Positions 9,940-62,164 of a stretch of 64,000 nucleotides of DNA are shown piece after piece; within the stretch, counting starts at the first letter, position 1; every line of letters begins with the position of its first letter. The notes beneath the pieces were generated by a model that worked only from the letters and a program-made list of their open reading frames with translations, had not been told where the DNA came from and ran no database searches. The position numbers and the translations under genes were made by a program. This DNA is from Phanerochaete sordida (lineage: Eukaryota; Basidiomycota; Agaricomycetes; Polyporales; Phanerochaetaceae), in contig BPQB01000024.1 in NCBI GenBank assembly GCA_019973155.2, forward strand, positions 248,001-312,000, written 5' to 3'.

Positions 9940-12900
9940 ATGCCAGCTCACACTCGCCATCCATACCCTTGTGGGGACGACAACGCAATCAACTCAGCAA
10001 GCAGCGCACTCGCCAACGGGAATCTCGTCGGAGAAGGCCGCATACCGCATCTCTTCACGCTCGCATCCTCGCTGTTTGCGCGTTCTGTTCGGACCAACAG
10101 CTTGCAGGACCTAGAAGACGCAATTGCAGCAGCGCGAGGAGCGGTAGCCCAGTATCCGTCACCAGACAGTCATAGCTCTCTACTGCTCTATATCCTCGCG
10201 GAATGCCTTCTCTTCCGTTTCGAAATTCTCAACAATTCGTCGGACCTCCAAGAGGGGCTTTCATTACATCGGCAGACTCTCGCTCTGCGCCCGTCCAACC
10301 ATGCCGCCCACTATCGCTCTCAAGTGTCCCTCGCCAAGGCGCTGCATACTTTCTATAACCATACCGGCGACTACCCTCGCCTTGTTGAGGCCATAGACCA
10401 CGGCTGTGCCGCCCTTTCTCTCTTCGACCCCCTCCGTCATGATCGCCCTGCAGTCCTTGATGATATCGCCAAAACATTCTATAGTCGCTTCAACTCCGTG
10501 GGGCAGCCACCCGATCTTCCAGCTCAAGACGATGCTCCACCTCCTCTGCCGCCATCCAAAGCCGAGAAAGAATGGAAGCGTCAAAAAACTGTCGAGAAGG
10601 TAGAAAGTGAGAGTATCGACGCTATCATGGAGATGACAGGCCTCGAGGAGGTAAAGGCGCAAGTACTGCGCATCAAAGCCAAGATAGACACCGCGGAACG
10701 GCAGGGAGTGTCGATGAGCGACGAACAATTCAACATTGTGCTACGCGGTAACCCTGGTACCGGTGTGTAAATTGGCTTATCATGTGCTGTGCTGTACTGA
10801 CACCTTCGCAGGCAAGACGACTATTGCCCGGCATTACGCGCGATTCCTTGCTTCAGTCGGCATACTGTCGGAAGATACCTTCTTCGAAACCACTGGCTCT
10901 CGCCTCGCGAACGATGGAGTCCGCGGCATCAAGGATCAGCTGGAAGAAATGCTCGCAGATGACGGCGGAGCAGTCTTCATCGACGAAGCCTACCAGCTCA
11001 CAAACGGGCACAGCGCCGGCGGACGCCAGGTCCTCGACTTCCTCCTCGCTGAGATGGAGAACCACATCGGCAAACTCGTCTTCATCTTCGCTGGCTACAA
11101 CAAGCAGATGGAGACGTTCTTCGAGCACAACCCTGGTCTCGCCAGCCGCGTACCGTACTCCCTGCAGTTCGCCGACTACACCGATGCCGAGCTCCTGCAC
11201 ATGCTCGCGAAGCTCATCGCAAAGCGGTACAACGGGAGAATGGTGATCGAGGGCGGCACATACGGCTTGTACATGCGCATCGCCGTGAGGCGCTTGGGCC
11301 GCGGGCGGGGCACAGAGGGCTTCGGGAACGCGCGGGCGCTACGCACCATGTTCGCGAAGATCTGCGAGAGGCAGGCTATGCGCCTGGCCGAGATGCGCCA
11401 GACGGGCGCAAAGCCTGACGACTTCCTGTTCACGAAGGAAGACATCATCGGGCCCGACCCCTCGGAGGCGCTCCTGGAGAGCGCATCGTGGAGGAAGCTG
11501 CACCAGCTAGTGGGACTTTCTGAGGTTAAGCAGAATATCCAGAACCTCTTCGAGCTGATCGCCGAGAACTACAAGCGCGAGCTGGCGGAGAAGAAGCCGA
11601 TACAGATGTCGCTCAACCGCGTATTTCTTGGAAATCCCGGTACAGGCAAAACGACCGTGGCGAAGCTCTATGGCCAGATCCTCGCGGATATCGGGTTGCT
11701 CAGTAACGGAGAAGGTAGAAATGTGCACATATCCCTGCTTTAGATGCTGATACGTCTTTTAGTCGTCCTCAAGAACCCTGCAGACTTCATCGGAAGCGCT
11801 CTCGGAGAGTCAGAGAAAAATACAAAGGCCATCCTTGCGGCGACTGTCGGCAAAGTTCTTGTGATTGACGAGGTAATTGTGTACAACTGATAAATCAAAG
11901 TATGCTTTCTGACGAGCTCGTAGGCGTACTCGTTGTACGGCAATAGTGCTGGAGATGGCTCGAGGCCGAGCGATGACTATAGGACGTCCGTCATTGATGT
12001 CCTTGTCGCCCAAATCCAGAGCGTCCCCGGTGAAGATAGATGTGTTCTCATGTGCGGGTATGAAGCGCAGATGCGTACTATGTTCCAGGTAATTTCGCCT
12101 GTCTTGGTAGCGTCACTCATACTGATCATCAAATAGAATGTGAACCCAGGCCTCTCCGGTCGATTTGCTATCGAAGACGCCTTTCGCTTCGAGGATTATA
12201 CCGATCCCGAACTACTTCAAATTATGGACCGCAAGTTGCAAGAGCAGGATCTCGATGCATCTGACGACGCAAAAAAGGTTGCTCTCGACATGCTCGGTCG
12301 CGCCCGCAATCGACCGAATTTTGGGAATGGACGCGAAGTGGAGAACATCCTCGGCAAAGCAAAGAATAACTATCGCTCTCGTGTTTCAACCTTTCCCGCT
12401 TCACAGCGGCCGTTCGACGTCGTCTTCGAGTCAGCCGACTTCGATCCCAACTTCGACCGAGCGGACAGCTCGGACGCAAGCCTACAGAGGCTCTTCAACG
12501 ACATGATAGGCGTCGAAACGATCGTGGAGAAGCTGCGTGAATACCAGGCCATTCCACGCGTCTCAAAGCAGCGCGGGCAGGACTCGCGCCAACTTATCCC
12601 TACCAACTTCATCTTCAAGGGGCCTCCTGGTAAGTCGCGAAAGCCTCAGATGAAGTAATTATGTCCTGACGCGGACTAGGGTCTGGCAAAACAACCGTGG
12701 CCCGCCGTATGGGCCAGGTATATTACGACATGGGCTTCCTGTCATCCGCAGAACTTATCGAATGCTCCGTGTCCGACTTAGCCGGTCAGTACGTAGGCCA
12801 CACTGGCCCGAAGGCGAAACAAGTCTTCCAACGCGCGCTCGGCAAGGTGCTATTGATCGACGACGCGCACCGCTTCACCGACAGCGCGTACTGCCAAGAA

Positions 12901-13749
12901 GCGATGAACGAGCTGGTCAGTTTTCTGGGACAAAGCACACAACTCGTTGTCATCCTCGCCGGCGACGGAAAGAAGATGGACGCTCTACTTTCCGCGAACT
13001 CCACTCTCGCGAACCGCGTTCAGGAGACCATCCACTTCCCTCCCTTTTCGCCAGAGCAGTGCCTCGAAATCATACGGAAGGACCTTGCGAAGAATAATAT
13101 CGAGTGCGCAGCGCTCGATGCGACGGGGTCGGACGAATACCAGTACATGGCATCCCAAATAGCGCAGCTTTCCGCCCAACCGTCGTGGAGCAACGGACAC
13201 GATCTGAAAGCTCTATCTCAGAAGCTGATTCGCTTCACCTTCAAGCAAGCTGCAGGCGTCAAGGGAGAAGGCGACAACCTCTGGCTGTCCGGTGCGGGCG
13301 CCGCCTCCTGCATCGCCGACGTAGTCTCAGAGCGCGCTCCACGCCCGCCGAGCCCGCCTCCGACTTCGACTTCGACTAGGCGCAGAGGCCACTTTTCCGT
13401 GCGTGCGTTCGAGATGGAGCTCGGGGTCGGTGGTAGCAGTCCCTCCAGTCCATCTCCTGTCCCGGCTTCGCAGCCAGAGACCTACCAAGCGCAAGCCGAG
13501 GCGTCTTTCGAGGCAAGTGCTACACGGCACCAAGAGCAGCAACGCAAGCGCTCCCGATCCATGGCTATGGAAGATGAACAGTCTCACCAAGAGACAGGAT
13601 TGCAAGATACGGCGAAGGAACAGAGAGCGCAGAAGAAACTTAAAGAGATGGCGCTCTGCCCGCAAGGGTTCGAATGGACAAAGGAAGGTGGAGGATACCG
13701 GTGCAAGGGCGGTAGCCACTTCGTAAGCAACGCTCAGCTGGGAATGTAG
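9940..13749 (+). CDS. Chimeric TPR / triple CbxX-type AAA ATPase protein
   Basis: Six exons (9940-10762, 10812-11714, 11763-11872, 11924-12088, 12137-12629, 12680-13749), with 48-51 nt introns, encode 1187 residues. Residues 1 to about 195 are TPR-like repeats closely resembling the N-termini of the two CHAT proteins here (LFDPLRHDR against VFDPRRHDR). After a proline-rich linker come three CbxX/CfqX (SpoVK-like) AAA modules. AAA1 has RGNPGTGKT and FIDEAYQL. AAA2 has LGNPGTGKT (Lys554) and VIDEAYSLYG. AAA3 has KGPPGSGKT (Lys835) but Walker B LLIDDAHRF, with Asp893 replacing the catalytic Glu. The tail ends in a conserved Cys/His motif (ALCPQGFEW...GGYRCKGGSHF). Such proteins are probably hexameric or multi-ring remodelling ATPases. 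The role is unknown. In the paralogue at 40094-47372 an NFX1-type helicase region replaces the TPRs. Confidence 0.85.
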
Positions 13750-14039: not shown

Positions 14040-15703
14040 CTAGTAGCACTGAGAGTAGTCTGCAAGGCAATGAGTATATTGCGTCACGAATTTGAAGGGG
14101 GAATACTCACAAGGGTTGAGGACGTGGCAAGTGTACGGGCTGGCGCAGGCGGTCGAGCCCGTGTAGCCGATGCCGCCGCACTGGCCCCACTGAGCCACGG
14201 GGGTACCCGTCGGCCCAGTCGGCGGGGTGCTGCTCGAAGAGTGAGAGGAGGAGCTGGACGAGGTGGACGAGTGCGACGAGGACGAGCTCGAGGAAGAGGA
14301 GACGGTGCCGGAGAAGGTGGTGCCGAGGTCGCCGATCTTGATGTTCGAGAAGGTGACGGACGAGCCGGGGCTCTGCGCCTCGATCTGCGCGGGGACGCCG
14401 GAGGTCGTCGCGCAGGTGCCGCGAGCAACACCGGGCGTCGACGCGTCCTTGGTCGTCGGGTAGTCGGAGTCGAGCCAGAGCATGCTCGCGGCGTAGTCGT
14501 CCCAGATCGAGAGCGCGAGGACCATGCCCGTGCGCAGCGCCTCGCCGACCTGCTTCAGGCCGCCGTGCTGCGAGAAGTAGTTGGTGTCGCCGAACGCTGT
14601 CTTCTGCTGCGCGCAGAAGTTGTCCGTGATCGAGTTGACGGGGTCGATGCCGGGGATGTTGACGTTCGAGTTCTGGATCACCTTGCCGTTCTGGACGTAC
14701 AGGCGCCGGATCTCGGTGAGGGTGCCCGCGGAGGTGTTGTCGCTGGTGATGAACTGGGTGACGACGGTGAAGGGCTTGGAGGTGTCGACGGTCAGGCCTT
14801 TGCCGAGGAAGGTCTGGTCGCCCATGCGGAAGGAGTTGAAGTCGCAGCCGTCGGCATCGCAGAGACCGGTGTCACGAGTGCAGTCGCTGCCAGAGCAGCG
14901 AGTCTGCGCGTTGGCCGTGCAAGGGTGGGGGGTGTAAGCCGCAGCGTCGTTGTTGGCCTCCCAGATATCCATCTCCGTGCAGCAAGTGCCGTAGTTGCCG
15001 GTACCGGTGTTGGCGCTGGTGCCGTTCCAGCCAGCGACGTTAGCCTATGAATAAAAACGGTGAGTTTGGTGCGCTTATTCTTCTCGCAGCAGAGACTTAC
15101 CTCGCCGTTAATGAACTTGATATCCTTCGGGCACTGCGAGTCGCAGTAGCCAGTGCCGTACTTCGCGCCAGCCTTGTTGGTGGGGTACTTGGCGACACCG
15201 CCGTCGGCGTCCATGGCAGAGAGGTAGAGAGCGCCGTTGAGACCGCAGGGGAGGTTGGACATGTCGACGTCGAAGGTGAACTCCTGGTTCAGGAGCTGCA
15301 GGAGCTCGTAGTGCGAGTCGTCCGACATGAGGTAGACGCGGGAGCCGACGTTGCTGCCGGTGACGAACTGGAGCTTGAGCGAGCTGCCAGAGGCGCTGAT
15401 GCCGTAGGTGCCGGTGTAGTCGGCGCCGTCGAGCGCGCAGTTGGCAGCGCAGGTCTTGCCGTCGGGGCACAGCGTCGCGTCCCACGAGTTGCCGGTGTAG
15501 CAGTTGGTGTAGCCGGAGGTAGAGTGCAGCCAGCGCCAGTTGGCGTCGAGCACGATCTTGGTGTTCACGTTCGTGCATCCACCGCTCTTCGTGCACTTCT
15601 GGGACGTGAGCGTGGGGTGGACCTCCGCCGTGTTGGTGCCGATCTGTTGACCGGACACCATCGCCAGCAGGGCAAACGAGAGCAGAGCAGCAGCGCGGAA
15701 CAT
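14040..15703 (-). CDS. cbhI: GH7 cellobiohydrolase (CBHI) with CBM1
   Basis: Secreted exo-cellulase releasing cellobiose from the reducing ends of crystalline cellulose. Exons 15703-15101, 15044-14111 and 14059-14040 join over 56 and 51 nt introns into 518 residues, typical of CBHI. A signal peptide ([18 protein letters not shown], cleavage likely before QQ) is followed by the GH7 catalytic domain with [12 protein letters not shown]. Glu225 and Glu230 (precursor numbering) match the nucleophile and acid/base of the family. A long Ser-rich linker (about 35 residues, SSSSHSS) leads to a C-terminal CBM1 ([12 protein letters not shown]...) whose last residues, including YSQCY, come from the tiny third exon. 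Many cysteines fit the usual disulfides. Presumably induced on cellulose and glucose-repressed, as in the family. Confidence 0.97.
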
Positions 15704-19664: not shown

Positions 19665-22600
19665 CTAGAGATAGAACGGGATGCCATACACTACAGGGGC
19701 GGCACCGGTGAGGTACTTGAGTTTGCACACGTCTCTCGACTGGGCAACGGCAGCGACAATAGACGTAGCGTCTTCTGCATGTTTCTTCGGTGTCCACTTC
19801 GCCACACGATCCTGCGTCAGGTGCATCTTGTCAAAGACGGCCTGCGAGAACTTGTCGATGTCGCGATCGGTGACGTCCCACAGGTTTGCAACGAGCGTTG
19901 GACTAAAAACGGCGAGGTAAGCATCCGTGTCTCTCGCTGGCTGGCCCGCAAGACTTACCATCCTGACAGCATGTAGTTGTACGGCGTGCCGATGCGGTCG
20001 AAGTCGCCCATCTCCTTCAACGCACCAGACGAGCAGCCCCAGAGCATTGTTGCGGCGCAGCGCGGAAGGTGCCGAAGCTTGTGCGACCTGATGTACTGCT
20101 CCGCGCCGCCGTGGCCAAAGTAGCTGCGTGAAACGCGTCAGCGTATGAGTGTACAAGAAGGAAGTGAGCACGTACATGACCAAGTCCTTCCGCGTCAACG
20201 CGTTCGCGAACTGCAGCTCGCTCGGCACGCGCCCGACGATGCCCTCCCAGCCGGCACTCTTCATGTCCTTCAGCCAGCCGATGAAGCGGCCCTCGGTGTT
20301 CTTGAGGTCGCCGCTCGGATTGAGCACGTAGAACGTGTTGCGCGGGTCCACGACGATCCTGTCTATCGGACCCTTCGCCGCAGAAGACCCGCCAACGCCC
20401 ATCTGCTGGCAGTACTCAAGGCGATCCAGTAGGAAATCCACGTTCGGGATGCGGCTGACGCTGCGCCCGCGGAGGACAGGGAGCGACTCCCACGGGATGC
20501 CCGCGACGTTCTTGTCGAGGACGAGGAACATGTGCGGGTCCTTCTGCGGGCGGAGCTTCCCGATGCAGCGTGCATGGTGCTCCTCGAGCGCGCTGCGCAG
20601 GTCGATCACCACCTCGTCGATGTCCACCTCATTCACCGCGACGGGCATCCCGTGGAACTGGTAGAGGTCGAGGATGAAGTACACGAGGTCCGCAAGCTCT
20701 TCGTCACGGCACTTCGGCGACAGCGACGCGAAGCACTCGAGCAGCGCGTCGTTGAGGCGTAGCTTCGTTTTATCCTTCTTGTCCTTCTTGTCCTGGAGAC
20801 GAAGGCCGCGCTTGAAGGCGAGTTCGATCTGAGCACGGAACGGTCCCAAAAGCTCTTCTGGAATGTCGGTTGGGTCATTCAGGATTGTCTGGATGCTTGG
20901 TAAGTCGTCATATCGAGCTCATGATGCACGCAAAGCTCACTTTGAACGCGCCGAGCCAACAGAACTCAATGTTGTTGAGCAGGTCCTTCATGCGCTCATC
21001 AAGCGCTGCTCGGTCGGCCCACCACTGCGATATAGCTGCGCGGTCCTTGATCACATGTTGAGCTTGTCTCGTCCCCTCATCGCTGAGATGGATAATTTCC
21101 TTGAGCTCGCCAATCGCGTCGTCAAAGGTAAGGAACGTCTCGTCTTCGTCGACAGTCTCTCTGCGTTCCTTGAGAGGGATGCAGAAGATGAGTGGCTCCC
21201 GCCCGGGACGCTGGCGCGTGACGAACATTGTGTTGCAGTCCTCCGTGACACTGATACTGACAACAGTCCAGTGCTGGGGAAGTGAGGCGAGCCGCGGAGC
21301 GGCAAGACTCGTAGAGTCAATTACTTGATTCCTGTACTTTGCGCCCACCGTGTCCCAGAATTTCTTGAGGGCATCGCGGGAAGAGCCCTGATCCTCGCCG
21401 TCCTCGTCGTCAGACCCGAAAGACACAAATCGAGCTTTCGGCTTGCGCTTCGGTGCCGGCATCACGGAACCATTGGGTGTCATGACTGGCCATTGGAGGT
21501 CGTCCGGAGTAGCGATGTCCGGGTACTTATGCTGAATGACCTCTAGGACCTCTCGCTGCAAGGTGATTGTAGCCGACATGTCTGCGGCGTGTCAGCGACA
21601 TCGTTTTATCATAAGCAAAGTAAACGTACCAAGAAGGCGTGCTGCTACGACGGGGCTGTCCACGGATGATCCGCCGAGGGATGTCTGGAATGCCCTGACC
21701 AACGCCAACGAGATTGCAGCGTCACGTACGTCGAACACGACCCCACGGCGCGAGATGAGACCAAGGTCGGCCCAGAACAACCTTTCTGCGTTGTTCAAAA
21801 TCGCAAGCACGTCTTGACTTCCAGAAGCTGGAGATGCCTTGTCTCGAATCATTCCCATTGGCAGCGTGATAGCTGTAAGGTTTTCAGCATAAAGCAGCGC
21901 GGGGTCGTATGAGCTTTACGCACTAGACTCCGAGAGGGAGCTCAGGAACATGTCCGCTTGGAACTTCGTGTAGACGTTCTCCAAGGACAGCTTGGCAAGC
22001 AACGCGCTCTCTTCAGCCTTGCCTTCCGCTGTCGACGACAGGTTGCGGAAGCGCTCCAGGAGAGTGTCATACTCTTCCCCTTCACCGTGGAGGAGTCGGA
22101 CTGAATGCGCCTGTCAGGAATCAGGCGAACGATCTCGTGCAGGTGGACTTACTATTCTGGCGCAGGATAGACATGAGCACACTGGGGGCGAGAGTCTCGT
22201 GGCTGTTCGCGAGTTTTGGCGACCTTGGCGTAAGCATCCCCTCCAACGATTTGCGTGGACTACGACTACGTCAGCCAACGCCGGCATATGAGAGACCTGC
22301 GTCGTACCTCGCGGCTTGGCCATCGAGAGCAGCAAACACGCTGTCGAGCTCTTCCAGCATGTTCATCGCTTCGTCGTACAGCTGCTGAGCATGCTTGCCA
22401 TCGGAGTGCCGCCGGCTGTGTTCCGCGCGAAGGCGACCAATCTCAGCGACGTCGGGACCAGCAGTGTCGGCTGCCAGTTCAGCGGCTTTGGTCAGGGACG
22501 CGTGGCTGTCCTCAACCTGATGAAGATGCAGGTAGATCTCGCCGATGCGCGCGAGCGCTCTGCCGACCATGGCGGGAGTGTCTAGGGAGTCGGCGACATC

Positions 22601-25600
22601 TTTTGCCTGCTGCGCGAAATATTCCGCTTCGCGAGGTGAGCCCCGGGCAAGGTAGGCCTGGGCCAAAGCGAAGAGGGTAACCAGCAAGCCGTGCGCGACC
22701 CGCCACTCGATACCATCAAGAGCAGGTAGACGGGGCATGACTTTCTTGGGCGACGACGGCTTCTCGTTCGGTTTAGGTGGAGTCTTCGTGTTGCCGCCGG
22801 AGGGCTTCTCGAGGAAGGGGTTATCGGAATCGCTTTCGACCGTCTGCGTAGGCTCCGGAGGCACAACCTTAGCCAGCGTCTCCACTGCCCGGTTCCACAA
22901 ACGAAGGGCTTGCAGCATGCCATCTATCGCGGCGGCTGGGTCGTCCTATAAAACACGTGAGCCTGATTTATGAGCGAATATACTCAAAAACTCACCCTTG
23001 AGTATTGAATCAGAGCAAAGGTGCTTGCAGCAACCGCAGCCCTCTCTAGGATGGTCGTACGCAAGACGAGCCGTTGGGCGACAGACATTCCTTTCTCCAC
23101 ATCGGGCAGCATTTCGGACGATCCGTATGCTTCGCAGTACGCTGACGAGCTTTTGAGAACATTGCCTGCTGCTGCGTGACACTCGGCGTAGCGCAGATGC
23201 AGCAGTACTTGAGTCTCGTCGGACAGCCGGACTCGCTTCGATAGGTTGATCGCGCTGTGGAGCACGTTGCCCGCCTTCGCCAGCTTGCCCAGGTTGATGT
23301 ACTCCTGCGCGAGGTCGCTTGATACGCTCACGTAGTCTGGAACAGAACGCATGTGAGCATACATGGAAAGAGCTGGATGTGAACTAGGCGCACCATCTGG
23401 TCGGACGTCTACAAACTTCTCGCAGATGCGCCTGGCGACAATGAGCAGATGAACTTTGGTCACGACCTGTCCAAGAAGTCCCAGAAGATGCGAGCAAGAC
23501 CCTATGACGTGTTATTCAGAGATCGCCCTGGTCTGTAACGGAGGCTGCTTACGCAAAAGGCTAAGCAGGACCGGAAGGTCGTCCACGAGAGGCGGACCTT
23601 GCCCCACCTCCGGCGTTCGCACTGCAGCAGCAGGAGCGACGCTCACGCGGGCTTGCACTATAGACCACAGTCAGCAACGCGCCGCACAGGAGTATCGAGA
23701 CCCACCTCTCTTCTTTTTCGGCGTCGAAGGCACAACAGCCGCCGTCTTCGCCGTCCTCGTCCTCGTCGCGCGCGCCGCAGGCACCCTCGACGCCGGTGCC
23801 GCCTTGCCCGTCCTAGCACCCGCCCTCGTCCGAGCGACCTTCGGCGACTGCGCTGGCGTGACCGACTGCCGCGGCTTCGGCGGCGCGGTCGCAGAGAGCG
23901 CGCCCTTGAGAATGCTGCACGCCTCCTCTGCGTACGCGACGACGCGCGAGAACTGCGACGTCTGCGCCGCGCGGTGGCACAGCAGCGCGAGGCGGAGCTT
24001 GAGGATCGCGCGGGAGCGGGTGCGGAAATGGGCGAGGCCCGCGTCGAGGCCCACGTCTGGCCGCGAGAGGAGCGCGTCGGCCTCGTTGCCGAGGGCTTCG
24101 GGGTCGGGCGCGGCGGGCGTATCGGGTGTAGAACACGAGTGAAGGTGCTCGAGCTGCTTGAGGATGACCCGCGCACGGCGGATCGGCATCTCTTTCGCGT
24201 CGTAGATGCGCAGGGCTTGTTCCAGGAGGAAGCGGATGGCTTTGCGCCCTGCCGGCTTCCACCTACAGCTGTCGAGGCTCTCGACCTGCCGCTCGAGAAT
24301 AGCGCCGATGATGACTTTCCGCGTCGCAGTGTGCCCCAAAGACAACCCCTCCGGCACGAAACAGTCTATGAGGTGCGACTTTAGCGACACCGCCTGCGGC
24401 TCGAGCCAGAGGTCGCAGATGCCCGTGTACGTCAAGCGGTCGATGATCTGCGCGACCTGCTTCAGCGACGGGCTGCTTTCGAAGAGTGCGGAAACGTTGC
24501 GCGCAGACGCGGTGTCGAGGAATGTTTGCTTCGCGAAGGGGAAGGCCTTGACGCAGCGGACGAACGCCTCGAACGCCTGCTTGCGGTCGTCCGTCTTGGA
24601 GTGGCACACACCCAGGATCTCCCAGCGCCGGTACATCTGGTCCTCGAGCTGGTTCCAGGGCTCTTGCTTCTCGGCTTCGGCGGGGCCTGCTGAGCGGTAG
24701 ATGCTCAAAGCCTTCTCGCCCAGCGAGCAGCTCTGCATCAGGAATCGCGCGGCGTGCGAGTGCTGTGTTGCCTGGTATAAAATCCCACCGATGTTGTGAA
24801 AGGCTCCCGAGAGGCAGCGCAGGTAGTTGGCGAGCTGCATCTTGTCGCACTGGTACTCTTCCGCGCGTGAAAGGAGGGTCGTGGCACGTGAGAGGTGATC
24901 ATAGACTTGGGAGTATGTCAGAGGCTGCGAGGTCACAAGTGTAACTCGCCCCAGCGCGAAGAGAGAATCAAGAGCTGCCGTCAAGAGGTCGCCGTCACAG
25001 GACTTTGTCTGCGCCATCCTCACTATTAGCGTTACATCCACGTGAACCACATGAACAACGAACCGAGTATACAGTCGCCTCCACAACGTCCATCACGCTC
25101 AGCACAATGTTCTGTACTAGGCGACGAGCAGTGCGGCTGGCTTCAGGGAGGGCGTCCAGCGCCTTCACAGCAGCTCGTCTTAGACGTTCAACCGCACGCC
25201 GAACCTTGTCTGCATAGCGATGCTCGTCGCTGTCCGGAGCATTGCGAGGCGCATAGACCGTGACGAGGAAAACATCGGCGCTCGCGATAGCAGACGCCGC
25301 GTCTGCCAGGCACTGTTGCGCATCGGAGTCGACTGAGAGAGCGTAAGCCGCAATGCCTCCAAATTACAAGTCAGAACACTGACCTTCGCCTTTGAGCTGT
25401 TCAACAACAGATGTGGCCTCTGTCAGCAGTGCGCTCAGACGGACCGCCTCCTGCTTCGTGGAAAGAGGCGTCTTCGGCGGCGATGCTTGGGAGGAGCGTT
25501 CTGGTGTCGAAGTCCGCTTCGCATCCGCAGTAGGCGTAGCATCTTGCGGGCTGCCAGCAGAGGACGGCGCAGGCGAAGGTTTCCGGATATATGCTGCCAC

Positions 25601-29610: not shown

Positions 29611-30700
29611 ATGGATCTAGTCATGAACTGGTTCACGAAGAAAGAGGCCTCCCGCAAGTACATCGACTTGATCAGAGACGCTTCGTCCAAGTGGGCCAAT
29701 TGGGATCCGCCAAAGACTATACGGGCAAGCATAGACGTGTACGTTAACTACGCTATGATTCTGAGGGCGTATACAGGCCGGGGACATTGGCTTCGTCAAT
29801 CGCGACTCTGGCGAGTTCGAGCGGCTAGGGAACATTTACCGCAGTCAGGATATGGCCCAGCTAGGCTGTGATGCAGAGCTATTTGAGCTCGTGCAATCAC
29901 ACCCGGCGACGGTCACGCCTGCAGATGAGGTGTACACGATCAAGTCGTATAATGCGACCCAAGTTGGTATGAACGCAGGTGCAAATGCGTGAGTGGCTCG
30001 ATCGTCATCCGCTGCAGCCTGGCTCCGAGCGTCGGGAAAGTTGGATTCTCCACAGCCATCAATTTCGACAGACACCGAGGCGCGTTTTTGGTCATGCACA
30101 ACCCGAATATGACAGTGGTACCAGACGAACTCTACCGCAACGAAACATTCGCCGAGAAGCTTTTCGGGAAGGACAAGCAGCTGAGGATCGTGACCGAGGT
30201 CTTCACCTGCGACGGATACGTGCTGTACCTCTCGAACAAGAGTAAGCTGTTTAGCTGGTTTGTTGCACGGACTATGTCATGCTTCACGGCATTTATAGAG
30301 GCCGAGTCTGTCGAAATCACGCTCGATATCGGAACTTCAAGCACAGCGGCTGCCTCTGTGGATGCAGACCTGGGTGCAACCTGGAATACAAAGGGAGGCT
30401 CAGGGAATTTCCGCAAGGGGTACAAGAAAGGCGCATTCACACCGCTGTACCACCTCAAGGGCCTTTTGCCTCCGCGCAAGAGGCGCCGTGGAGATGGCGG
30501 CGAAGGCGATGACGGTGATAGGTTCGTGCCTTGTCCCACATACCATATAGATGCTGATGGAAGCCGGCATTGCTCGATGTAGCTTGGACGATGTTGAGGT
30601 ACCATGGAATACTCTCGATTCTGATGGCGAGCAGGATTCGGACGAGGAAGAGGGTGGTGAGGACGACGACGAGGAAGATCCCGAGGATGAGGACAACTAG
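29611..30700 (+). CDS. Candidate gasdermin-like pore-forming protein
   Basis: Five-exon model: 29611 to about 29724, 29777 to about 29988, 30018-30241, 30299-30521 and 30583-30700, 296 residues, close to fungal gasdermin-like proteins (about 250-280). The pattern fits a basidiomycete family that I associate with HET-Q1/RCD-1-type gasdermins: short N-terminal helix, GDIGFVNRDSGEFERLGNIY, then alternating strand segments including RGAFLVMHNP and IVTEVFTCDGYVLYLSNK. A basic patch (PPRKRRR) follows, then an acidic tail of Asp/Glu runs. Fungal gasdermins are freed by proteolysis of a C-terminal region and then perforate membranes. Here a CHAT protease gene lies 250 nt away, convergent. Intron 1 needs a GC donor or a 40 nt intron, and intron 2 is only 29 nt, so the model may be imperfect. 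The family call is from memory and unverified. Confidence 0.5.
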
Positions 30701-30953
30701 GAGTAGAACGCAAGTCCGCTCACGTCCTGCTACTTTCAACCTGTATTATCGTCCATAATTCTGCCTCGATGGGACACACAGAGTGCCCCGCATTCAATGG
30801 CGCGAAGAAATCCTACAATAATGTACATGGTGCGGTATCAGTTTATAATACCAGATACTCAAAGCTTGGAAAATCGAGCATGAAGAGTCCGTATACTACG
30901 CGACGTGGGCTAGCATATATCATATCCGGAGACGACACTAGAGTTCCAGACGC
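30701..30953. terminator. Convergent 3' spacer, gasdermin-like / CHAT
   Basis: Only 253 nt separate the stop of the plus-strand candidate from the stop of the minus-strand CHAT gene. Both 3' ends must lie here, possibly overlapping. Confidence 0.4.
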
Positions 30954-33900
30954 TCAAGCTCCAATGTGAACAAAATTCACCCATCTTTCCACCTTCATCT
31001 TCGGCCCGTTGCGCAGCCGTAGCTCTCTCGTAGCAGCTTGCACCGCTTGCGCCGCCATCTTGAAACGAATCTTTTGTGGCGGGTGTGACAAGTCCTGCTC
31101 CAATCCCGCTGCGGATAATTTGCCGTAGAATACGTCGGCAAACGTCGACCCATCGGCGTCGAGCATCTCCCACATCGTCCCCACAACCCCTCGAAATCCG
31201 CAGAATTGCATCGCCGCGGCAAGGTGCAGCACTTCCTCCGTTGCGCTGCCATGAGCCTGCTCTGCGGTATGGCAAGCGGAAAGGACGGCGAGCTCTGCTT
31301 GATGAAGCCCCGCTTCGATGAGGTCTTGCAGGGTAAGCCGCTCGTTTCCACCGAGCTTGAATGCCGAGTCCAGAGGTTTTTGTGTCTCCAGAGTTCCATG
31401 ACAAGCAAAGTGGACCCATCGGTGTTGCTTGACTCCAGCCAGAACTGTTTCTCGATTGCACGCCAATCCTCCTTCGCTTCCGTCTGCGAGAACCAGCTTC
31501 TCACCCTCGAAGTACTTGCGAAGAGCTTTGATCTCTTTCTTGACCGTCTTCAGCAACTTGTCACCAAGCAGTGCGGCGCAAAACAGAACCTCGCTTCCGC
31601 TTGGCTCAATGTGCAGATTCCTTCGCGCGTCGAGAAGCGCAGTAAGCGTAGGAGTGTAGGACGATATGTATAGGTCTGAAAGGTATATCTTGCCGTCTGG
31701 GGACTCAACTTGGACGGAAACGTCCTCCAGTGGGCCAGCTGCATGTAGCGGTAGGACAGAGATCACAGAAGTTGGACACCACCATATTCTCGATCCTGGG
31801 CTTACTCCGAGCTCCTTCAGCCGCTTCATCACCGGATCAGCCACGTATTCTGCTAGGAATTGAAGTGTGATTTTGAGCGCTTTGTCATAATCCTTGGGTG
31901 CTCGGCTCAATGCTCTGCGTCGAAGCAGCAGCGTGCTGGAGATCTCGGTTGCTTTCGCGTAGAATGCATCGGAGAGCTTGATACAGCTGATTTGATCTCC
32001 ATCGTCTCCTTGGCTAATGATGAGAGCATCTGAGCGATGGACGCTATGGTTGATGATTATGACTGGGCCTTCCGCAGAAATAGCTTCCAGGCTGGAGCGA
32101 TCGCAGTACGTAGCGGGCATCAAGAAATTTGGAAGTTCCTGGCGGATTTCCGAGATAACCTCGTCCAGCTCTACTGTGAGACGGCGCTTTGTCTCTAGCA
32201 TTGACCCATATTCATCTCGAATACCTCCAGGTTGAGCAGCCGAATGGCTTAGGAATGGGCTAGAAGATGTTCCAAGTGCATCGAGTTCCTTGTTAAGCCG
32301 AATAAATCTGTCACGAAGGTGCTCCTTGCTGGCGGAGAGCTTATCTAGTGGCGTGCGGAGACGGCGGATCTGAGACCAGATCAGGGCTCTCCCTTGTTCC
32401 AGGTAGTCGACTGCAGATCGAAGCTTGTCTTGCGAGATGGCATAAGCTGCAGCGTTTGCAGCTAAGGCTGCTAGATCTATTGGTCCCGCCTCGCGTTGCA
32501 TCTCTAGGACTAGCTGGTGCTGCATTTCCAGGGTAGGTCTTGCCATGAAGTTCCGTTGTAAGAGCTGGAGACACATGGAATATGCATCTCCGGTAGAGTA
32601 GTGGTGGACGGAATGTGCAAGCCGTGCCCAGAGCATCGCACATCGAAGTTGATACAGCTGGCTTATTACTGGTCGACCAGGCTTAGGGAGACATCTAGTA
32701 GCAAGAAATGTAAGCAAATCGTGAAGTTATTATGGAGAGGAAGAACATACCCATTCTGACAGTAGCCAATAGCGTAATCAATATCCAGGGTATCGCTTGG
32801 CACTCCGCTTGCGCAATATCGGTGGTATAAGGAAGTCGCAAAATTGATCATGAGACCTTGGTATGCTAAGGGGTGTTGATCTGGCAATATAATTGGCAGC
32901 AGCTCCTGGCACCTCGCAATGGACTCTTTCAAGTCATCTGCGATCTTCAGCGCGTTGTAACGCTTGAGTAGCGCGTGGTTCAAGGTAACAGATAGAATGA
33001 ACTGATATGGAGATTTTGCTGTGGACTCTGCGGTGGATATCGCTACAAACTTTGCTGGAGATTCTGCTTCAGACTCGGGGATGCTCTCCTCTGTGGGCTC
33101 AGCAGGAAGATCTGCTGTGGACGTTGTCGTTGACTTCCTTGAAGAAACATGGAGGGCTTCTCGAAAGTTCAGAATCGCCTGATCTAGATCTTCAGACCTT
33201 CCACCAACATCAAACCGATTCTGATAGCACCACGCCAAGTTGGCAAGTACGCGTGCACGAAGGAAATGTGCTGGTTGTGAAGACTTGGATGCTTCCAGTC
33301 CATTTGAAATGCCTTCATCGAGCTCGGCAGGGTTTCGTGTCTTCCTCCAGCGACCGTGAAGTGCCAACATAAGGTTGTTGAGTAGAATGACTTGATCAAC
33401 ACCCCAGAGCTCCCCTGTTATAGCTGCTGCTTGACGTAGTAGCTCAAGGGATTTGTCAGAGTCTTGAAGCTGTTCATACACAGCAAATCGCTTATCCATG
33501 GAGGTGGCTAAAATGCAGAGGGCAACTGAGTGGTTGGGATGGCCTTGTGGGCACAATGATAGTGCTTCATTCCCATATTTGATACTGTCTTCGAGGTCTT
33601 CGGGCTGGCGCATATATGTAAAGCGCGTAGTCAGAGCTTCTGCCAGGGTTAACAGTGCAAATCGACGATCGGAGTGGGTAGTGGTTGCCACGATGTTTTG
33701 TGCCTGTCGGATCCCATCCTCCAAATCCTGCAAGTGCCCTGTGACGGTATATCGAATATGGAGGCCTTCCGCCTGCATGACTTTGGCCAAAATAGTCAAG
33801 GTAGGACCCATGGAAACATTCTGAGTAGAGGTGGCTAGTTGAGCACTCATGCATATGGAGCGGTTCAGACTGTGAAGGTCGCTGGTCAGCAAATATTGGC

Positions 33901-36526
33901 GGGCCAGAGTTATCATCAAGGCAGTCTCAAAGAGGAGAGATATTTCCAGAGAATGTGGATTTGCAGCTGCTCTTCGAGACTCAGCAAGGGCATCATCGAA
34001 GAAGGTAATGTATGCTTTGAGATGCTCAGGGTTATTGAAGAGCCATCGTGAATGAAGCATAGTATATGCCAGTGAAGCGAGTGCGACCATGCGCTGTGGA
34101 TGATCTGGAGGACAGAGAGAAAGGTATAGTGTGTCGTATTTGATGGCGCCCTCGATATCGTGCACCGCATTCGACATTTGAAACCGAAAACGAAGAGCGC
34201 GAGCAAGATGACTCGCAACATGAATTTGAAGCTGCGATTCCAGTGCAGGAAGGTCCAGAATGCTCGTGTAGAACATTATCGAGTTGCTGAGATCCTCGAT
34301 CACTCGAGTCACCTCGAAGCGTCGACCCCAGGACGTCGCCAGACCGCATAGGATTTGGGAGTGCATGGGATGGGGCGTTGGATAGTCTAGCAGTGCTTGT
34401 TGGTAGAAGGAAAGAGCTGCCTCAAGGTCAGCTGTGCGTTTGGCGACGGTAAAGCGATCATTGAGCAACGACGCAAGACTATCGATGAGAGAGGGGCGTA
34501 TAGATGCTTTGACAGGACAGAGCACAAGAGCATCCTTGTAGTATTCGATTGATCTCGTTAAATCGCTGAGCTGTTTTGATGTCTGAAAGCGGTATTGGAA
34601 CATTCCTCCGAGAATGATCAATATCTTGTAGCGACGGAGATGTCGAGGGGAGTATGATGCCAGTGCAATCTGGGCGAGCTCAATACTGTTCTCCAAGTCA
34701 CTGAAGCTGTTGCTTTTCCCATACCGGGTGTACGTGATGAACGCTGCGAGATGCAGCAAAGAGAGACGGGATGTAGTGCCCTCGGGGTATAGCTGAAGTG
34801 CATCTTGGACGAGGTTGGAAGCTTTATCGAGCTCGTCAAGAAGGCCACTTTGACCAAATTGCACCACAAGAGAATATGCCGAGAGAGATATCAATGTTGC
34901 GCGCTGTAGATTGCTCAGAGGGCATGCGTTTAGGGCTGTACACCCTAAGGTATTGCTGCGGCTCATCCAGTCCCATCTAACGCCCGATTGTACAGCATCC
35001 TGCGAGGCAGTCCAGTATCCGGCCACCAGCTCCAGGTATAGCGGCGATGTTCCCAGACAGCAGGCTAGCCCTTGCTCGTAGAGCTCCATCGCTGAATCGA
35101 GGTCTTGTCCATTCATCGTATGCTCGAAGCGTTGAGCAAAAGCACGAGCTACAGCGCACAGCGCACGCGCCTTCCCTGGTGCACCGTCATTGCAGCGTCG
35201 CAACGCTTCTTGTCCGTGCTTGATGCTCTCCTCTATATCCTCGCGAGTGCCGTTAAAAATGAAGCGGTGGCATAAGACATCTGACAGTCCACAGAATGCA
35301 TCCATGCGATCGGCAGATTCTGGTGGTAGGAGAGCGATCGCTTCGTGTAGACGATTGGCGCTGTCATCCAGATTCTTCACATTACACGTAACTGTAAAGC
35401 GAGTGTAGAGCACAAGAGCAAGGTTTATGAGGGACCGCGGCCGGTGGACATGATTAAGCGGGCGCAGCGTGAGCGAATCGATTCCGTGGTGAAATGCCGC
35501 GTCCAAGTCTGCTTGGAGCCCTTCGCCAACAAAGCGAGCAATGAGTGCTGGGATGAGGGAATCGAGGATCATAGCATGAATAGGCATAGTAGGGGAGCTC
35601 CGCTCAATAGCTCTGTTGCAGAGCAAGATGATATTCTTCAGATCATCTACCTGCCCTGTACGTTGGAATTGAACCAAGAGTGCGGCTGCCAGGGTGGTCA
35701 AAGCGCGAACATGACCAGGCGCTCCTGAAGGGCAGAGCAGTATCTCCGCTCGTCCATACGCTATCGCGGCTTCCGCGTCTCTTATGTTCCCGTCCCTTCG
35801 GTAGCCATAGAGAAGCGCTTGAGCCGATACATCCAGTGACACAGGCCGAGTCCAGGACCCGATCTGGCTGGAAGATATTGCTTCTCGAGCATACTCCAGG
35901 CATTGATCAAGCTCGAAAGAAATATTGCTGAGCCTGTAGCTCATGAGCAGTGATGCGGAGAGCGTAGCACATATGGCGGCACGTTCAGGTTGCGTGGGAT
36001 CAATAAATGAGAGGGCGTTGCGCCCGACGTTGATGGACTCCACAAGATGCGTTGACCGGCTAGCAAGAAGAAATTGCAGATGGAGAACCTTGGCGAGTGA
36101 CATGGAGAGCGCGCAGCAATCGGCACTGGCAGCAGGGAGGAGACGCAGCCCATTACGAAGGTGTGATACCGCTTCGACAAGATCTGTAGGCCATCCGAGC
36201 AGCTCGAATCGACACATGAGGAGCTCCGCGAGAGCGTATAGCAAAGCAGCCCTGCGTGCGTCGACTGGCGATGAGACATGTACAGCCCCTCGTGCCGCAA
36301 CAATGGCGTCCTGGACGCTCTGCACGGTGTATGTGCCGACGAAGCGTGAGAATAGGGCCGATGATAGCGCGATCCAAGAATGAGCTTCGATGGTATACGG
36401 ACGGGGGCTGTCGATATGGGGCTGAGTGGTGACATTGCGCAAAGCACGACTGAGGTGCAAATGGAGCAGTAGGCGGTATACTGCCAGAGCCTCCAGCCAC
36501 GTTCTCATCGTGTGCAGGAGGGGCAT
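30954..36526 (-). CDS. TPR-CHAT caspase-like protease, copy 2
   Basis: Second CHAT peptidase. Exons 36526-32751 and 32694-30954 join over a 56 nt intron at the same protein position as in copy 1, giving 1838 residues. The architecture matches copy 1: about 1,300 residues of degenerate TPR-like repeats, then the CHAT domain. The catalytic residues are present: His1691 in HFACHGTLE (codon 31400-31398) and Cys1733 in LSACHTAEQ (codon 31274-31272). FCGFRGVVGTMWEM follows. A Ser/Thr/Glu/Pro-rich insertion near 33000-33150 (SIPESEAESPAKF...STAESTAKS) interrupts the last repeats and is absent from copy 1. The gene is convergent with the gasdermin-like candidate and downstream of the pseudo-helicase AAA gene. 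Codon use is less GC-rich than in copy 1. Confidence 0.9.
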
Positions 36527-51141: not shown

Positions 51142-53291
51142 ATGTCTGCCTTTGTTGCTGCGATCCCACCAAGGGAGTTTACTGCCAGGTTCATGGATAC
51201 CGGACGGGACCTGCCACCGGCGCCGGCTTCGGACTTTGCTCCGGTGGCTTGCTCGACGACCGACGCAGAGGCGCGGGAAGCCTTCGTACGAAACGCCTGT
51301 CGTCGCGAGCGATGCGTGACCTAACACTCGAGATTACTTCAGATACGCGTCATAGAGGGTTCGAATGCCTGCCCAGGCGTGCGCTTCTACATCCCAAAGC
51401 TCAAGAAGCGGCAGCGAGCGGCGTTCTGCGACGAAGACGAAAGTAGGAATGACAATCTTGTCGCGCCGCATACATCGGTAGCGGCGTGCCCTCTCAAAGG
51501 GGAGCGAAGTAGAGCTCCCCGGAAGAATCTCTCCCAATATTACGACTTCGCCACCAGCCTACTCGGAGTCGAGGTTTTGGCAGATCGCGAAAGCGACCCT
51601 TTCTTGGACCCAGAGGAATCCTCCGGGTCTACAAACATCATGCGAAACACCATCGGGGCCAACGCCGCTCGCGGACGCATCCTCAGAAGCACACAAGCCC
51701 TCTTCGCCCGGCAACACCGCACCTTCCTCTTCTCGCTCGTCCTCGCCGGCACCCGCGCCCGGTTCCTGCTGCTGGACCGCTCAGGCGTGCTCATCAGCGA
51801 GAGCTTCGACTACGTCCACTCCCCAGACGTCCTCGCCGGCTTCCTGTGGCGCTTCGCACACATGGACGCCGCGGCGCGCGGGCTCGACGCGTCTGCGGTG
51901 CTCGCGACGCGCCATGAGGCTGCGCTCTTCGCCGACGCCGTCCACGCCTTCCTCGATCCTGCGGAACCGTCGCACGCGGCGCGCGCGCTCCCGGACGCCG
52001 AGCTATCGCTCGACCACACCGACACGTACCCGATCTGGAAGATCACCGTGCCCGGCGCCGCGGGGCCCACGGAGCTCGTCGCGCAACGCCCCTTCGCAGG
52101 ACGCCCCGCGCTCGTGGGGCGCTGTATGCGCGGGTACCTCGCGTACGATCTGCACGCACGCCGGCTCGTCTTCCTCAAGGACACCTGGCGCTGGGACGAG
52201 CCAAGGCTCCGGCCCGAGTGCGATGTTTATCGGCAGCTGGAAGAGGCTGGGGTGCCGAGCGTGCCGCGGGTCGAGTATGGTGGGGATGTTGGTGGCGCGG
52301 ATGGGAGTGGGACGAGGGTTGGTGGGCTGTGCGAGGAGAAGCCGGAGTGGTTGAGTGTGGGACGTGGGTTAAAGGGATTCGTGCATCATCGCGTCGTGCA
52401 GGATGTCACCTATTCACTGGACACGGTGCGCGATGAGCGGGAGCTGATACAAGCGCTGCACGATACGATCATCGGTGCGCACATTTCTTCTTCTCTGATG
52501 ATGAGGCTAAGACCCATCTCTAGCACTGGACAAAACTTACGACGACCTCGGCATCCTCCATCGCGACCTCAGCGTCGAGAACATCCGGCTCGACGCACAC
52601 AGCCGGTGCGTGCTCAGCGACTGGGACTGCGCCGGCCCGCCCGCGCGCTCCGGAGAGCCCTTCGTGCGTGCCCTCCCTGCTTTCCTCGCAGCATATATGC
52701 TCACAAGCATAGCAGGGCACGTCACAATTCATGTCCACCCGCCTGCACTACGACCCTCCGTGCCAGAACACGCTCACCGACGACCTCCAATCCGTGTTCT
52801 GGGTCCTAGCCGTCGTCGCCACGTCCCGCTTCGCGCGCACGCGCGCCGGACTGCCCCACGCACTCCTCGCGCCCGAGCCCGGCACGTGCGGGCTCGCGGC
52901 GCTCGTAAACGCCAAAGCCGAGGTGCTGCGCAGAGGCGGGAAGCTCTGGGAGGCGAGGTTTGGCTGCAAGGCGCTCGAGGAGCTGCTGGGCGGACTGACA
53001 GAGGCGTGGGGCGAGTATTCGCGGGCGGGCGAGGGAGACATGTGCGATGCGCGCAGCGGGGAGATACGAGATCAGGTGGCGCGGCCGGACTTTTGGCGCA
53101 AGAAGTTCGCGGCTGCGCTGAGGGTGCTTGACGAGGAAGAGGCTGCGCGGGATGGGCTATCTGCGGCAGTGCCGACTTCGTGTGCGGGTTCGAAGCGTAA
53201 GGCTGTCGAGGACCTGGATGAGTGTGTGTGTCGGGGCGCGCGACGGTCGAAACGACTTAGAGCGATGCGCGATGGCGCACGATGTTTATAA
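51142..53291 (+). CDS. FunK1-type protein kinase, copy A
   Basis: Fungal-type protein kinase of the FunK1 family, which is expanded in mushroom-forming fungi. Exons 51142-51285, 51343-52474, 52524-52663 and 52716-53291 join over 57, 49 and 52 nt introns into 663 residues. The N-terminal region has MSAFVAAIPPREFTARFM and CPGVRFYIPKLKKRQ. A large N-lobe follows (YLAYDLHARRLVFLKDTWR, VYRQLEEAGVPSVPRV). The catalytic loop HRDLSVENIRLD and an Asp-containing DFG equivalent, LSDWDCAGPP, are intact. After GTSQFMS comes the C-lobe with TLTDDLQSVFWVLAVV. The tail GSKRKAVEDLDE...RRSKRLR looks like a bipartite nuclear signal. Start chosen because kinases B and C share the same N-terminal module. It is convergent with the pseudokinase. 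Confidence 0.9.
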
Positions 53292-53453
53292 TCCAGGAGA
53301 TTTTCGTGCAGCCTCTATTGCATAGACTGTCTTAGAGATTCGCGATGGTGTTGGGATGAGAGTAGACAGCATATATTCAAGGAGACCGTCGTGACACATG
53401 TGTCTCCATACGACGACACAAATTACAAAACCGAGAAGCACACTGGCCCCCAA

Positions 53454-56278
53454 CTACTTACCTTTGCCCCTCATGCGCCGCACGAGGCCGCGCATAGGCG
53501 TCTTGGCCTTCACAGGGCTCAAAGGCTGATCCGCTTCCTTGGTCTTCTTGGGGGTAACAGTGTCTCGCACCTTTTGGAGGAAACCACCCTTCTTCCGCTT
53601 CGGGGTCTGAGGCGCAGAGATATGCTGAAGGACGTCCTGCGCAGTCGAGGACGGAGCCTGTGGCAAAGCAGAGGCCGCTGTCATCTGCACGTCCGCATCA
53701 TCGGGTACCGCCAAAGCTGGATCGCCAGAGGCAAGAGGCACAGGACCCGGCTTCGGACCAGGAAGTGGAGCTGGAACCTGGGGCGGCAGCTTCTTGAGCT
53801 TGCGCGTGCGACGGGCCAGCTCTTCAGGCGACATCCTAGTTGGTGGGGCAACCAGTATGGGAGGGTGCACAGATACGCTGCTGTTCTCTTTGTCGCCCGC
53901 AGACCTCAGGTCGCCATCCGCAGGCCTCTTGTTTCCGATGTTGAAATCTAGAGTGAGGGTGCTGGCCTTCCGGGAGACACGAGTGCCATCAGTGGTCTTA
54001 CCTACAGCGTTGACGACGGTCGGCGGCGTGGCTTTCCCAGCTGGGTACGTGTGCGGGAGGCCCTGGATACGCACAGCCTGCGAGAGGGAGGGCTGGTCTT
54101 TCTTGCTGAGCTGGTCCTTTGCGGGCGAGAGGCCGCGGATCATCTGACCCTCCCACCCAAGCTGCTTGAGCGCGAGCTCGATTTGGTGGAGGTACCACTG
54201 CGGGTCGGCGACCGTCGCGGCAAGGGATGCGAACTCGGGCGAGCGGAACTCTTCGTCGACAGAGAGGAGACTGTAGTAGTTGCGCCAAGTCCGCACGAAA
54301 AGCTGGAAGATATCGCTGAGTGGACGGCACGTGAACTTGATCTCGTGGAGTTGGTTGCGGAGGTAGCCCTCCTTGTGGATATAGTCGAGGGACGTGATTT
54401 TTCCTTTGGCATTTACCTGCTCCTTATTTGGGCTGAAAAAGTCGCCGTCTTGCATGAGGATCCTGTCGTTCTTCGGCTCGATGTAGACGAGAGCGGCGTA
54501 TACGAAACACCAGAACCACGACTCGACTTCGTCGATAAGTTCAGGGTGCACCGCTGCACCATCGGATGCAGCCTTCATCAGCCGTATAGACATAAACTGG
54601 GACGTTGCCTAAAACTGGGTTAACGAGTGACTCCTAGTCTGAGACGGTGTGACGGCGTACCGCGGCATATCCAGCTCTTTCCTTGTACCGATGGGCATTG
54701 TGCCAGCCACACAAGATGCCCGTGATACCTCCTCCCTCTCTAAGCACCCACTGTATGCGTTTCGGAGTGATATCGCCGTGTATGAGTCTAAGCTTGTCCC
54801 ATGAATCCTTGACAGCTTCAGAAAATAGTAAATGCGTGTGGTCAAAGGTAAAGCTGTAAGACACACGCACCATGAAGCGCATCCCGGAACACCATAAGAA
54901 GCTCCCTGCAGCTCTTCACCAGGTGGACGGGGAAGCCGACGGGTTCGAGATGTCGCTGATGTACCCGTGCATGCATTTTCGGAGGACCGTTGCAGGGGCC
55001 GCGCCATGGCGCGTTATCCGGAGACGCCGCTGCATCTTGTGTCGTGGTCTTCTGGGGTTCTGTCTCTCCAGGCTCGAAAACATCCCCGCCGCTCTCCACC
55101 TGGAAGGTGTGCGAGACCCCCGCATCGAAAAGCGCTCGGTAGGTCGCATACTCCGATACCGTTCCATCGACGCGCCACGAGTCCCGCATGGTGTACACCT
55201 CGGGCCCATCTGGATTGACGGCGAGGTACAGGCGCATTCCATAGCCAAGCGGGCCGTACTCAGAGTAGAAAGGCTGGCTCGTCAAGACGTAGCGAACCTT
55301 GCTGGGCGACCTCTCGTCCGTCACAGCGACCTTCTCGACCGGCAGTTTTGACGGCATTCCGAGGTATTCCTCGATCTGTGCTTGATTTCTTCCAATACGA
55401 AAGAGCCAGAGGGGAATGGCTGTGCGGTAGTGGCGGGTTTCGCTTGGGCTGGCAGGTAGGACTGTGATATCGTGACCGCGTTCGCGACGACCCATCTGGT
55501 AGTAGGCTCGGACCAAACGTGGGACCCAGGGCACGACGGTCGGGTCGAATGATTCACTGACGATGGCACCAGCACGATCCCAGCGAACTATCTGTGCAAA
55601 TTTGCGGTTGAGAATGACCTGGTATACTGCAGTTCGGTGTTGGTGGACCATCTGCTTCGCTGCGTAGAGTGCGAGCTGCCCGCGAGCCGAACTGCCGCCC
55701 TGACTCTCGATGCTTGCCCCGGCCACCCAAACTAGCGTGAAGGGCATGACCTCGTCCTCGAACTTCCCCTCGACAACGAAGTCCATGGTCATAAAGTTGA
55801 ACGCAGCTTTCAAAACCCTAGAGGTGGGGCCTGGCATACGGTGTCGCGATACCTGGTCGTTTGGGGGGACTTGTAAGCCATTATCTGGCTTGAGTTTGGA
55901 CAACTCCGTTGTGGCATCCGAAGAAATGAGAATGGCAGTATTAACGGGGAGGTCTTCTTGCTGCATAGCGGCTGCCTAGGACCACACACGATTCAGCATG
56001 CTGAAGCGAAAGGCTCATAGTTCGAAACTTACCCAGGGGCCGTACATTTCTCTCTCCTTCTTCGACTTGCCGAAGGCCTCGTAGTCCCCTAGCGTCCGGT
56101 TTCCATCGTCAAGAACTTGTGCACCGGGAAAATGGTCTGCGAAGAACTGGGGCAACGGCATGTGACCGACGAAATACCCTGTCAGGGACAAGGCGAGATG
56201 CTGACGTTCATGCTCGTTGAGGAGGACATTCCATGCGTATTCGGGTAAAAATATTGGATCGGTGGGGATGATGTCCAT
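53454..56278 (-). CDS. FunK1-type predicted pseudokinase, copy D
   Basis: Exons 56278-56033, 55975-54871, 54815-54661 and 54608-53454, with introns of 57, 55 and 52 nt, give 886 residues. It begins MDIIPTDPIFLPEYAWNVL, a different N-terminus from copies A-C. A FunK1-like N-lobe follows (LTSQPFYSEYGPLGYGMRLY; VYTMRDSWRVDG). The catalytic loop reads IHGDITPKRIQW: HRD has become HGD and the metal-binding Asn is Arg. The DFG/DWD position reads CGWHNAH with no Asp, so catalysis is unlikely. ATSQFMSIRLM and EVESWFWCFVYAAL mark the C-lobe. A roughly 250-residue Pro/Ser-rich basic tail (TPKRKKGGFLQKVRDTVTPK) follows. The coding end GGT AAG TAG could also be a splice donor (see findings). Confidence 0.85.
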
Positions 56279-61916: not shown

Positions 61917-62164
61917 ACGTTTCGTGCAGGTCTCAAATACATGGTACATACCGCGTGTGTCCTGAAAGCATATCTGGCGTATGACTTATGGTCTTGCTGT
62001 CAGTGGTGAGAAGGGCCCAGAAAATAAGTCGTCCCAACCCGTCCAGGTGCGAAGTGGCCCCCGCGGTACGTACGTCGAAGAAGCCTGGAGGCATGAGCAT
62101 CGACTAAGTGTGGTATTCAGCTCTACCTCAGGCTGACACGTCCTCTGTAGTCCTCAGCCTCTGA
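61917..62164. other. Short intergenic spacer
   Basis: About 250 nt between copy C and the FunK1 pseudogene. No feature recognised. Confidence 0.35.

Follow-up and report, generated by a model that had tools for sequence, protein, structure and literature searches.

In fungi, the pairing of a gasdermin gene with a gene for a CHAT protease is a known arrangement. According to the excerpted text of the sources cited here, some 80% of the gasdermin genes of fungi sit in clusters with protease genes and 19% are found near a CHAT gene within 10 kb (PMC10197012); in Podospora anserina, a CHAT protease bearing tetratricopeptide repeats (TPR) was demonstrated to activate the gasdermin encoded in the same cluster (PMC12881547; PMC10197012; originally Clave et al. 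2022), and a CHAT gene of A. fumigatus has a part in incompatibility (PMC11138114). HET-Q1, a P. anserina protein of 278 amino acids (aa), is cut at F238 and loses 40 C-terminal residues (PMC10989679), and in bacterial gasdermins a short C-terminal peptide covers the lipid-binding face and keeps the protein inactive (PMC12547243). Here we analyze a stretch of 64,000 nucleotides (nt) from the basidiomycete Phanerochaete sordida (contig C24, positions 248001-312000, of an assembly of 40.8 Mb in 222 contigs), referred to below as the window, in which a small gene that looks as if it encodes a fungal gasdermin lies beside a gene for a TPR-CHAT protease. The locus resembles the P. anserina cluster in grouping a gasdermin gene with a gene for a CHAT protease that has a putative TPR region. 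It differs from that cluster in its basidiomycete lineage, in a protein family not reached by sequence from solved gasdermins, and possibly in the family's conserved acidic W/PW/LD/DG tail.

The putative pore-protein gene and its CHAT neighbour

The two genes have the following features (window coordinates).

29611..30700, plus strand: five-exon gene of the gasdermin family, 292 aa; deposited under PsYK624_082190 (P0001), start 29623
29623..29724, plus strand: deposited exon 1, encoding the N-terminal helix and KWANWDPP motif; further in-frame ATG at 29611
29777..29988, plus strand: exon 2, after the 52-nt GC-AG intron 1
30018..30241, plus strand: exon 3; deposited start 30018, or 30030 if intron 2 has 41 nt
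30299..30521, plus strand: exon 4, encoding the last part of the gasdermin domain and the linker
30475..30489, plus strand: RKRRR Arg/Lys cluster in the linker (P0001 residues 239-243), containing the nearly invariant Arg of the family
30583..30697, plus strand: exon 5, encoding the conserved acidic tail, LDDVEVPWNTLDSDG and a run of Asp/Glu; putative autoinhibitory latch
30954..36526, minus strand: TPR-CHAT protease gene, 2 exons (36526-32751 and 32694-30954), 1,838 aa
32751..36526, minus strand: exon 1 of the protease gene; long TPR-like repeat region, proposed sensor (TPR_12 8.4e-05, below the Pfam cut-off)
30957..31868, minus strand: CHAT protease domain (PF12770, E 3.6e-27; a genome-wide scan matches the same place)
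31398..31400, minus strand: codon of catalytic His1691, dyad by alignment
31272..31274, minus strand: codon of catalytic Cys1733, dyad by alignment

The five-exon gene proposed by the first-pass annotation was recovered as an open frame of 292 aa across the spliced exons. The deposited counterpart P0001, a hypothetical protein of 292 aa, is 99% identical to this model; mapped back to the DNA it yields the exon coordinates listed above, with the second Met as start and a different intron-2 acceptor. Intron 1 has a GC donor. Intron 2 (29989-30017, or to 30029) is unusually short, with 29 nt in the deposited protein and 41 nt in our model. Searches of the P. sordida genome with three query proteins found two family members, the second being P0004 (PsYK624_059030) on contig C14, 192200-193304. 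This paralogue has four introns at apparently matching sites, in phases 0, 2, 1, and 2 as in the window gene, and one extra intron near the stop; its intron 2 has 63 nt.

Both gene models confirm that the two genes converge, with a stop-to-stop gap of 253 nt (30701-30953). The protease gene has a single 56-nt GT-AG intron, and its second exon carries, within the last 579 residues, a CHAT domain that scores 96 bits against a cut-off of 24. The catalytic dyad reported as intact is indeed present as His1691 and Cys1733, both of which are kept in 120 of 123 aligned CHAT rows. The very large TPR region ascribed to the protease is a putative one: the first 1,258 residues look repetitive, containing 15 matches to a loose motif pattern, with 6 of the 14 spacings measuring 43-48 residues and three more 90 or 180, and matches to Pfam TPR models there are weak and stay below the cut-off (TPR_12, 23.1 bits versus 30.1). 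By sequence, the nearest solved CHAT is that of Csx29, the TPR-CHAT protein of Craspase (PDB chains at E 0.006-0.007, dyad aligned); the NCBIfam Csx29 model matched with 44.6 bits, far under its cut-off of 300. Unlike the P. sordida CHAT, Csx29 is RNA-guided, and it cuts Csx30 after Leu, as the excerpted article describes (PMC9729208).

The gasdermin placement of the small gene rests on predicted folds, since neither Pfam nor PDB sequences gave a match to any gasdermin. In AlphaFold2 (AF2) models of two family members, the predicted fold is that of a gasdermin N-domain: gasdermins occupy Foldseek ranks 1-13 and 1-16 among PDB matches, and ranks 1-18 and 1-13 by VIA. The fold comparison therefore supports the gasdermin-like family call made in the first pass, as gasdermins are matched ahead of all else in the PDB. 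The top structural matches are the bacterial gasdermins 8sl0, 7n51, and 7n52 (Z up to 11.1), proteins for which the excerpted reviews also describe a short C-terminal inhibitory peptide and clustered proteases. Unlike these, the P. sordida family has no conserved Cys, the palmitoylation site, in the N-terminal helix: there is none in P0001 and none conserved in a 25-row alignment, where P0023 alone has a Cys near the helix end. Pfam gave no convincing match to any model for 25 family members, HMMER retrieved no gasdermin from PDB sequences with the family, NCBIfam had no match for P0001 and P0006, and PADLOC none for P0001, P0006, both window CHAT exons, and P0143. A whole-genome scan with Pfam Gasdermin (PF04598) found nothing and was uninformative, since it was equally silent on the controls. 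Between fungal and animal gasdermins, sequence identity is very low or absent, according to the excerpted text of a review (PMC12547243), so that a missing sequence match does not exclude a gasdermin.

Recurrence of the pairing

A single-sequence search returned 27 family proteins and a profile search at least 158 at E<=1, of which 120 were listed. Among these listed matches, many are metagenome proteins, and the named source organisms are Agaricomycetes. On viral and prokaryote contigs, no relative was confirmed among 44 and 31 pattern stretches, respectively. From 126 homologues we built a 118-row alignment, omitting eight fragments or length outliers (P0011, P0025, P0071, P0090, P0097, P0108, P0124, and P0126). 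One of these, P0071 from Suillus subluteus, has a second gasdermin-like N-terminus (ARKFIDLIHQTSFKWANWNP) after the tail motif, which suggests a tandem or fused gene. We met no mention of the family or its tail in the literature searched, which left out most subscription journals; members may already be listed in Clave et al. 2022.

The first-pass annotation had asked whether homologues occur together with CHAT genes elsewhere, and the answer is positive in part. In Coniferiporia weirii, the gasdermin (M0805_001922) and a CHAT (M0805_001923) have consecutive locus tags and are both on a 30,256-base contig, and in Phellopilus nigrolimitatus a family member and a CHAT share a contig of 118,483 bases. 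In P. carnosa, a single 5.87-Mb scaffold carries four CHATs together with two members, one of which is a short model, with ids 189744 (CHAT), 189748 (gasdermin), and 189751 (CHAT); the third member of this species is on another scaffold, with no CHAT there among the matches listed. These shared contigs were inferred from the contig sizes and locus tags given for the matches. Counting P. sordida, 4 of the 15 species named in both listings show a shared contig, with 120 of 1,369 CHAT matches listed; the P. sordida CHAT that counts here is another one, as the true neighbour is not among the matches listed. By order, this amounts to four of six Polyporales and Hymenochaetales and none of nine Russulales among the matches listed. 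Since so few of the CHAT matches were listed, the species misses mean little. In the P. sordida genome itself, with at least seven strong CHAT loci, one of the two family members would be expected within 253 nt of one of seven CHATs by chance at about 2e-4, an estimate that disregards clustering (three of the seven CHAT domains are within 42 kb). The proposal that the linked CHATs form a single clade was rejected: in a 38-row tree, for which 37 rows were picked from the 120 listed, this label needs five changes for five rows.

The conserved tail and the linker

What looks like the part of this locus that goes beyond the known pairs is the unusually conserved acidic tail of the P. sordida protein's kin, a feature absent from the first-pass annotation. 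In the 118-row alignment, a variable linker is followed by Arg, W, five residues, P, W, two residues, L, D, two residues, and G. Among non-gap rows, these columns are conserved in 114/116 (Arg), 114/116 (first W), 109/116 (P), 114/114 (second W), 112/114 (L), 99/114 (D), and 114/114 (G), and the spacing is rigid: six residues separate the two Trp (112 of 113 rows), and six separate Trp and Gly (all 114). Mean information is 2.67 bits for the tail (19 columns), 2.36 for the core, 1.62 for the linker, and 1.88 for the end past the tail, with limits chosen after viewing the alignment and related rows not down-weighted. A regular expression for the tail matched 106 of the 126 homologues; by eye, 13 of the 20 misses are close variants and seven are short, partial, or misread models with no tail. 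The segment after the conserved Arg has a median of 43 residues and a net charge of -16.5, and that before it 237 residues (median) and +5 (114 rows); at -26, the tail of the window copy is the acidic extreme of the family.

In size and putative split point, the family resembles HET-Q1, from which, as given above, 40 residues are lost after F238; in 114 of 118 rows, a HET-Q1-like C-terminal segment of about 40 residues follows the N-domain. The protease HET-Q2 is of the subtilisin-like serine type with Phe at P1, whereas at the P. sordida locus the protease is a CHAT cysteine enzyme and the conserved residue is Arg. The residue preceding this Arg is Arg in 59, Phe in 29, and His in 14 of 116 rows, and because of the Phe rows the two sites may differ less than they look; the residue following it is Gly in 50, Asp in 46, and Glu in 9 of 114 rows. 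The last shared intron sits in the linker in both P. sordida genes, so that the tail motif begins a new exon in each. Since the better model, that of a homologue, gives a high predicted local distance difference test score (pLDDT) for the tail (90/86/79) and lower values for the linker (72/68), the tail is predicted to dock on the pore-forming domain, confidently in the homologue's model and less so in that of the window protein. We propose that it serves as an autoinhibitory latch, or safety catch, and the RKRRR region of the linker is a possible site of cleavage.

Scanning the P. sordida genome for a DNA pattern of PW-x2-[LF]-D-x-[DE]-G (zero mismatches, within one exon; one match for the reversed control) returned five matches: the two family members, one with an in-frame stop, one whose matched letters equal those of the hit with the stop, and one with F for L and no sign of kinship. 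Under these settings, no P. sordida protein beyond the two family members was seen to carry the tail as a tag.

Separase is a eukaryotic relative of CHAT proteases and cuts after Arg, which makes the invariant Arg a tempting cut site. The Arg-reading residue of separase corresponds to Lys670 in Csx29, according to the excerpted article (PMC9729208); we placed it eight residues past a conserved Trp, by counting on from an alignment ending at residue 665 and not by structure. The window separase has Asp there. At the same place, Pro (63) and Arg (43) predominate among the 123 CHAT rows, and the window CHAT has Ser. By this residue count, separase-like reading of Arg by these CHATs is unsupported. 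The separase gene pieces of the window (19668-22945, minus strand; Peptidase C50, E 3.6e-67 and 1.2e-26), with TPR matches upstream, are some 7 kb away from the gasdermin gene, a vicinity that is probably coincidental.

A possible cell-death module and its alternatives

We read the locus as a two-gene, pyroptosis-like cell-death module in which a tail-inhibited gasdermin is switched on by the TPR-CHAT protease, and assign this reading a probability of roughly 0.7; predicted folds and recurrent pairing support the module that had been proposed from the initial inspection. The short acidic C-terminal tail, docked on the pore-forming domain, would keep the gasdermin inactive until the TPR region of the protease senses a trigger. 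The CHAT domain would then cleave the exposed linker and release a tail of about 40-50 residues, whereupon the basic N-terminal fragment could bind acidic membrane lipids and oligomerise, and the resulting pores may kill the hyphal compartment. A more specific version, which we regard as possible but doubtful, would make Agaricomycete gasdermins a clade that has an activation code to itself: an acidic latch encoded by an exon, W-x5-PW-x2-LD-x-[DE]-G, would clamp the pore domain, and CHAT proteases would release it at one set position in the linker, marked by the invariant Arg with Gly, Asp, or Glu as the next residue.

Several observations weigh against the module. The Foldseek TM-scores of the gasdermin rows are low (0.15-0.34), and neither PF04598 nor a PDB gasdermin was matched by the single sequence or by the 25-row and 118-row profiles. 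No shared contig was seen in 11 of the 15 species among the CHAT matches listed, and the five CHATs taken as linked do not group into a single clade in the 38-row tree. Within about 9 kb of the second P. sordida copy, on C14, there is neither a CHAT nor an S8 protease, other protease families not having been searched; the nearest CHAT found is 78 kb off, none of six S8 matches is on the contig of this copy, and the ten flanking open reading frames scanned gave a fungal transcription-factor domain in two and no match in eight. Co-occurrence with CHAT genes is seen in the three other species named above, and not for this copy or, among the matches listed, in those 11 species. These CHATs also have no acidic residue, by residue count, where separase recognises the P1 Arg, which speaks against the invariant Arg as the cut site. 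Finally, the window copy has Leu at the first, elsewhere nearly invariant, Trp of the tail, and the window protein's own, shallower model has a pLDDT of 50 for residues 241-250 and of 79/70/49 for the tail.

The alternative that survives best, although we consider it unlikely, is that the tail serves permanently as a structural strand, or as a handle on which the protease docks, instead of as a latch, with the cut elsewhere or activation not involving cleavage. Modelling of the tail at the confidence of the folded part (pLDDT 86-90), its average conservation above that of the core, as expected of a structural element or binding epitope, and the seeming lack of separase's Arg-reading residue in these CHATs would all agree with it. 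Its attachment by a variable, lower-confidence linker, the exon of its own that it starts in both P. sordida genes, its strong acidity, and a size fitting the piece lost from HET-Q1 and the range of bacterial gasdermins argue for the latch. We give still less credence to a cleavage-independent mode like that of RCD-1-1/RCD-1-2 of Neurospora crassa, in which two diverged alleles or paralogues would activate each other and the CHAT neighbour would be incidental. RCD-1 acts through co-expression of two alleles (PMC11760362), and P. sordida has two diverged family members; RCD-1 is, however, described in the excerpted text as devoid of an inhibitory C-terminal domain, while the P. sordida family has a conserved tail with a putative inhibitory role, and the CHAT pairing recurs in other genera. 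Least probable are mere chance neighbours, a CHAT with another substrate and a gasdermin with another activator, as might be suspected from three CHAT domains within 42 kb, two with no family member detected beside them, and from the distance between the other gasdermin and a CHAT, but not from the low chance expectation or the consecutive tags in C. weirii.

The two further CHAT loci are at 3840-8931 (plus strand) and at C24:237340-239070 (L020:5340-7070), with the dyad in both and no family gene detected beside. Positions 10527-12901 and 43404-41030 form an inverted, diverged duplication (68.7% over 2,417 nt) with AAA-domain genes, each copy a few kb from a CHAT gene. Elsewhere in the window, a gene for a family 7 glycosyl hydrolase that carries a cellulose-binding domain lies at 14043-15044 (minus strand; E 5.3e-108), and positions 51325-64000 hold several genes for fungal-type protein kinases (Pkinase_fungal), accompanied by DNA repeats of 74-78% identity.

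Somatic incompatibility has its models in ascomycetes and is little understood in basidiomycetes, according to excerpts of PMC8229728; the gasdermin systems named in the excerpted reviews are from two ascomycetes, and the excerpted 2024 review (PMC10989679) poses as an open question how widespread the known mechanisms of inhibition are in bacterial and fungal gasdermins. The P. sordida locus offers, in a basidiomycete that causes white rot, a gasdermin-protease pair that is compact and open to testing; the gasdermin belongs to a family placed by fold, whose tail motif supplies specific residues to mutate. If the proposed activation code were true, the latch motif alone could find hidden gasdermins and their proteases across mushrooms.
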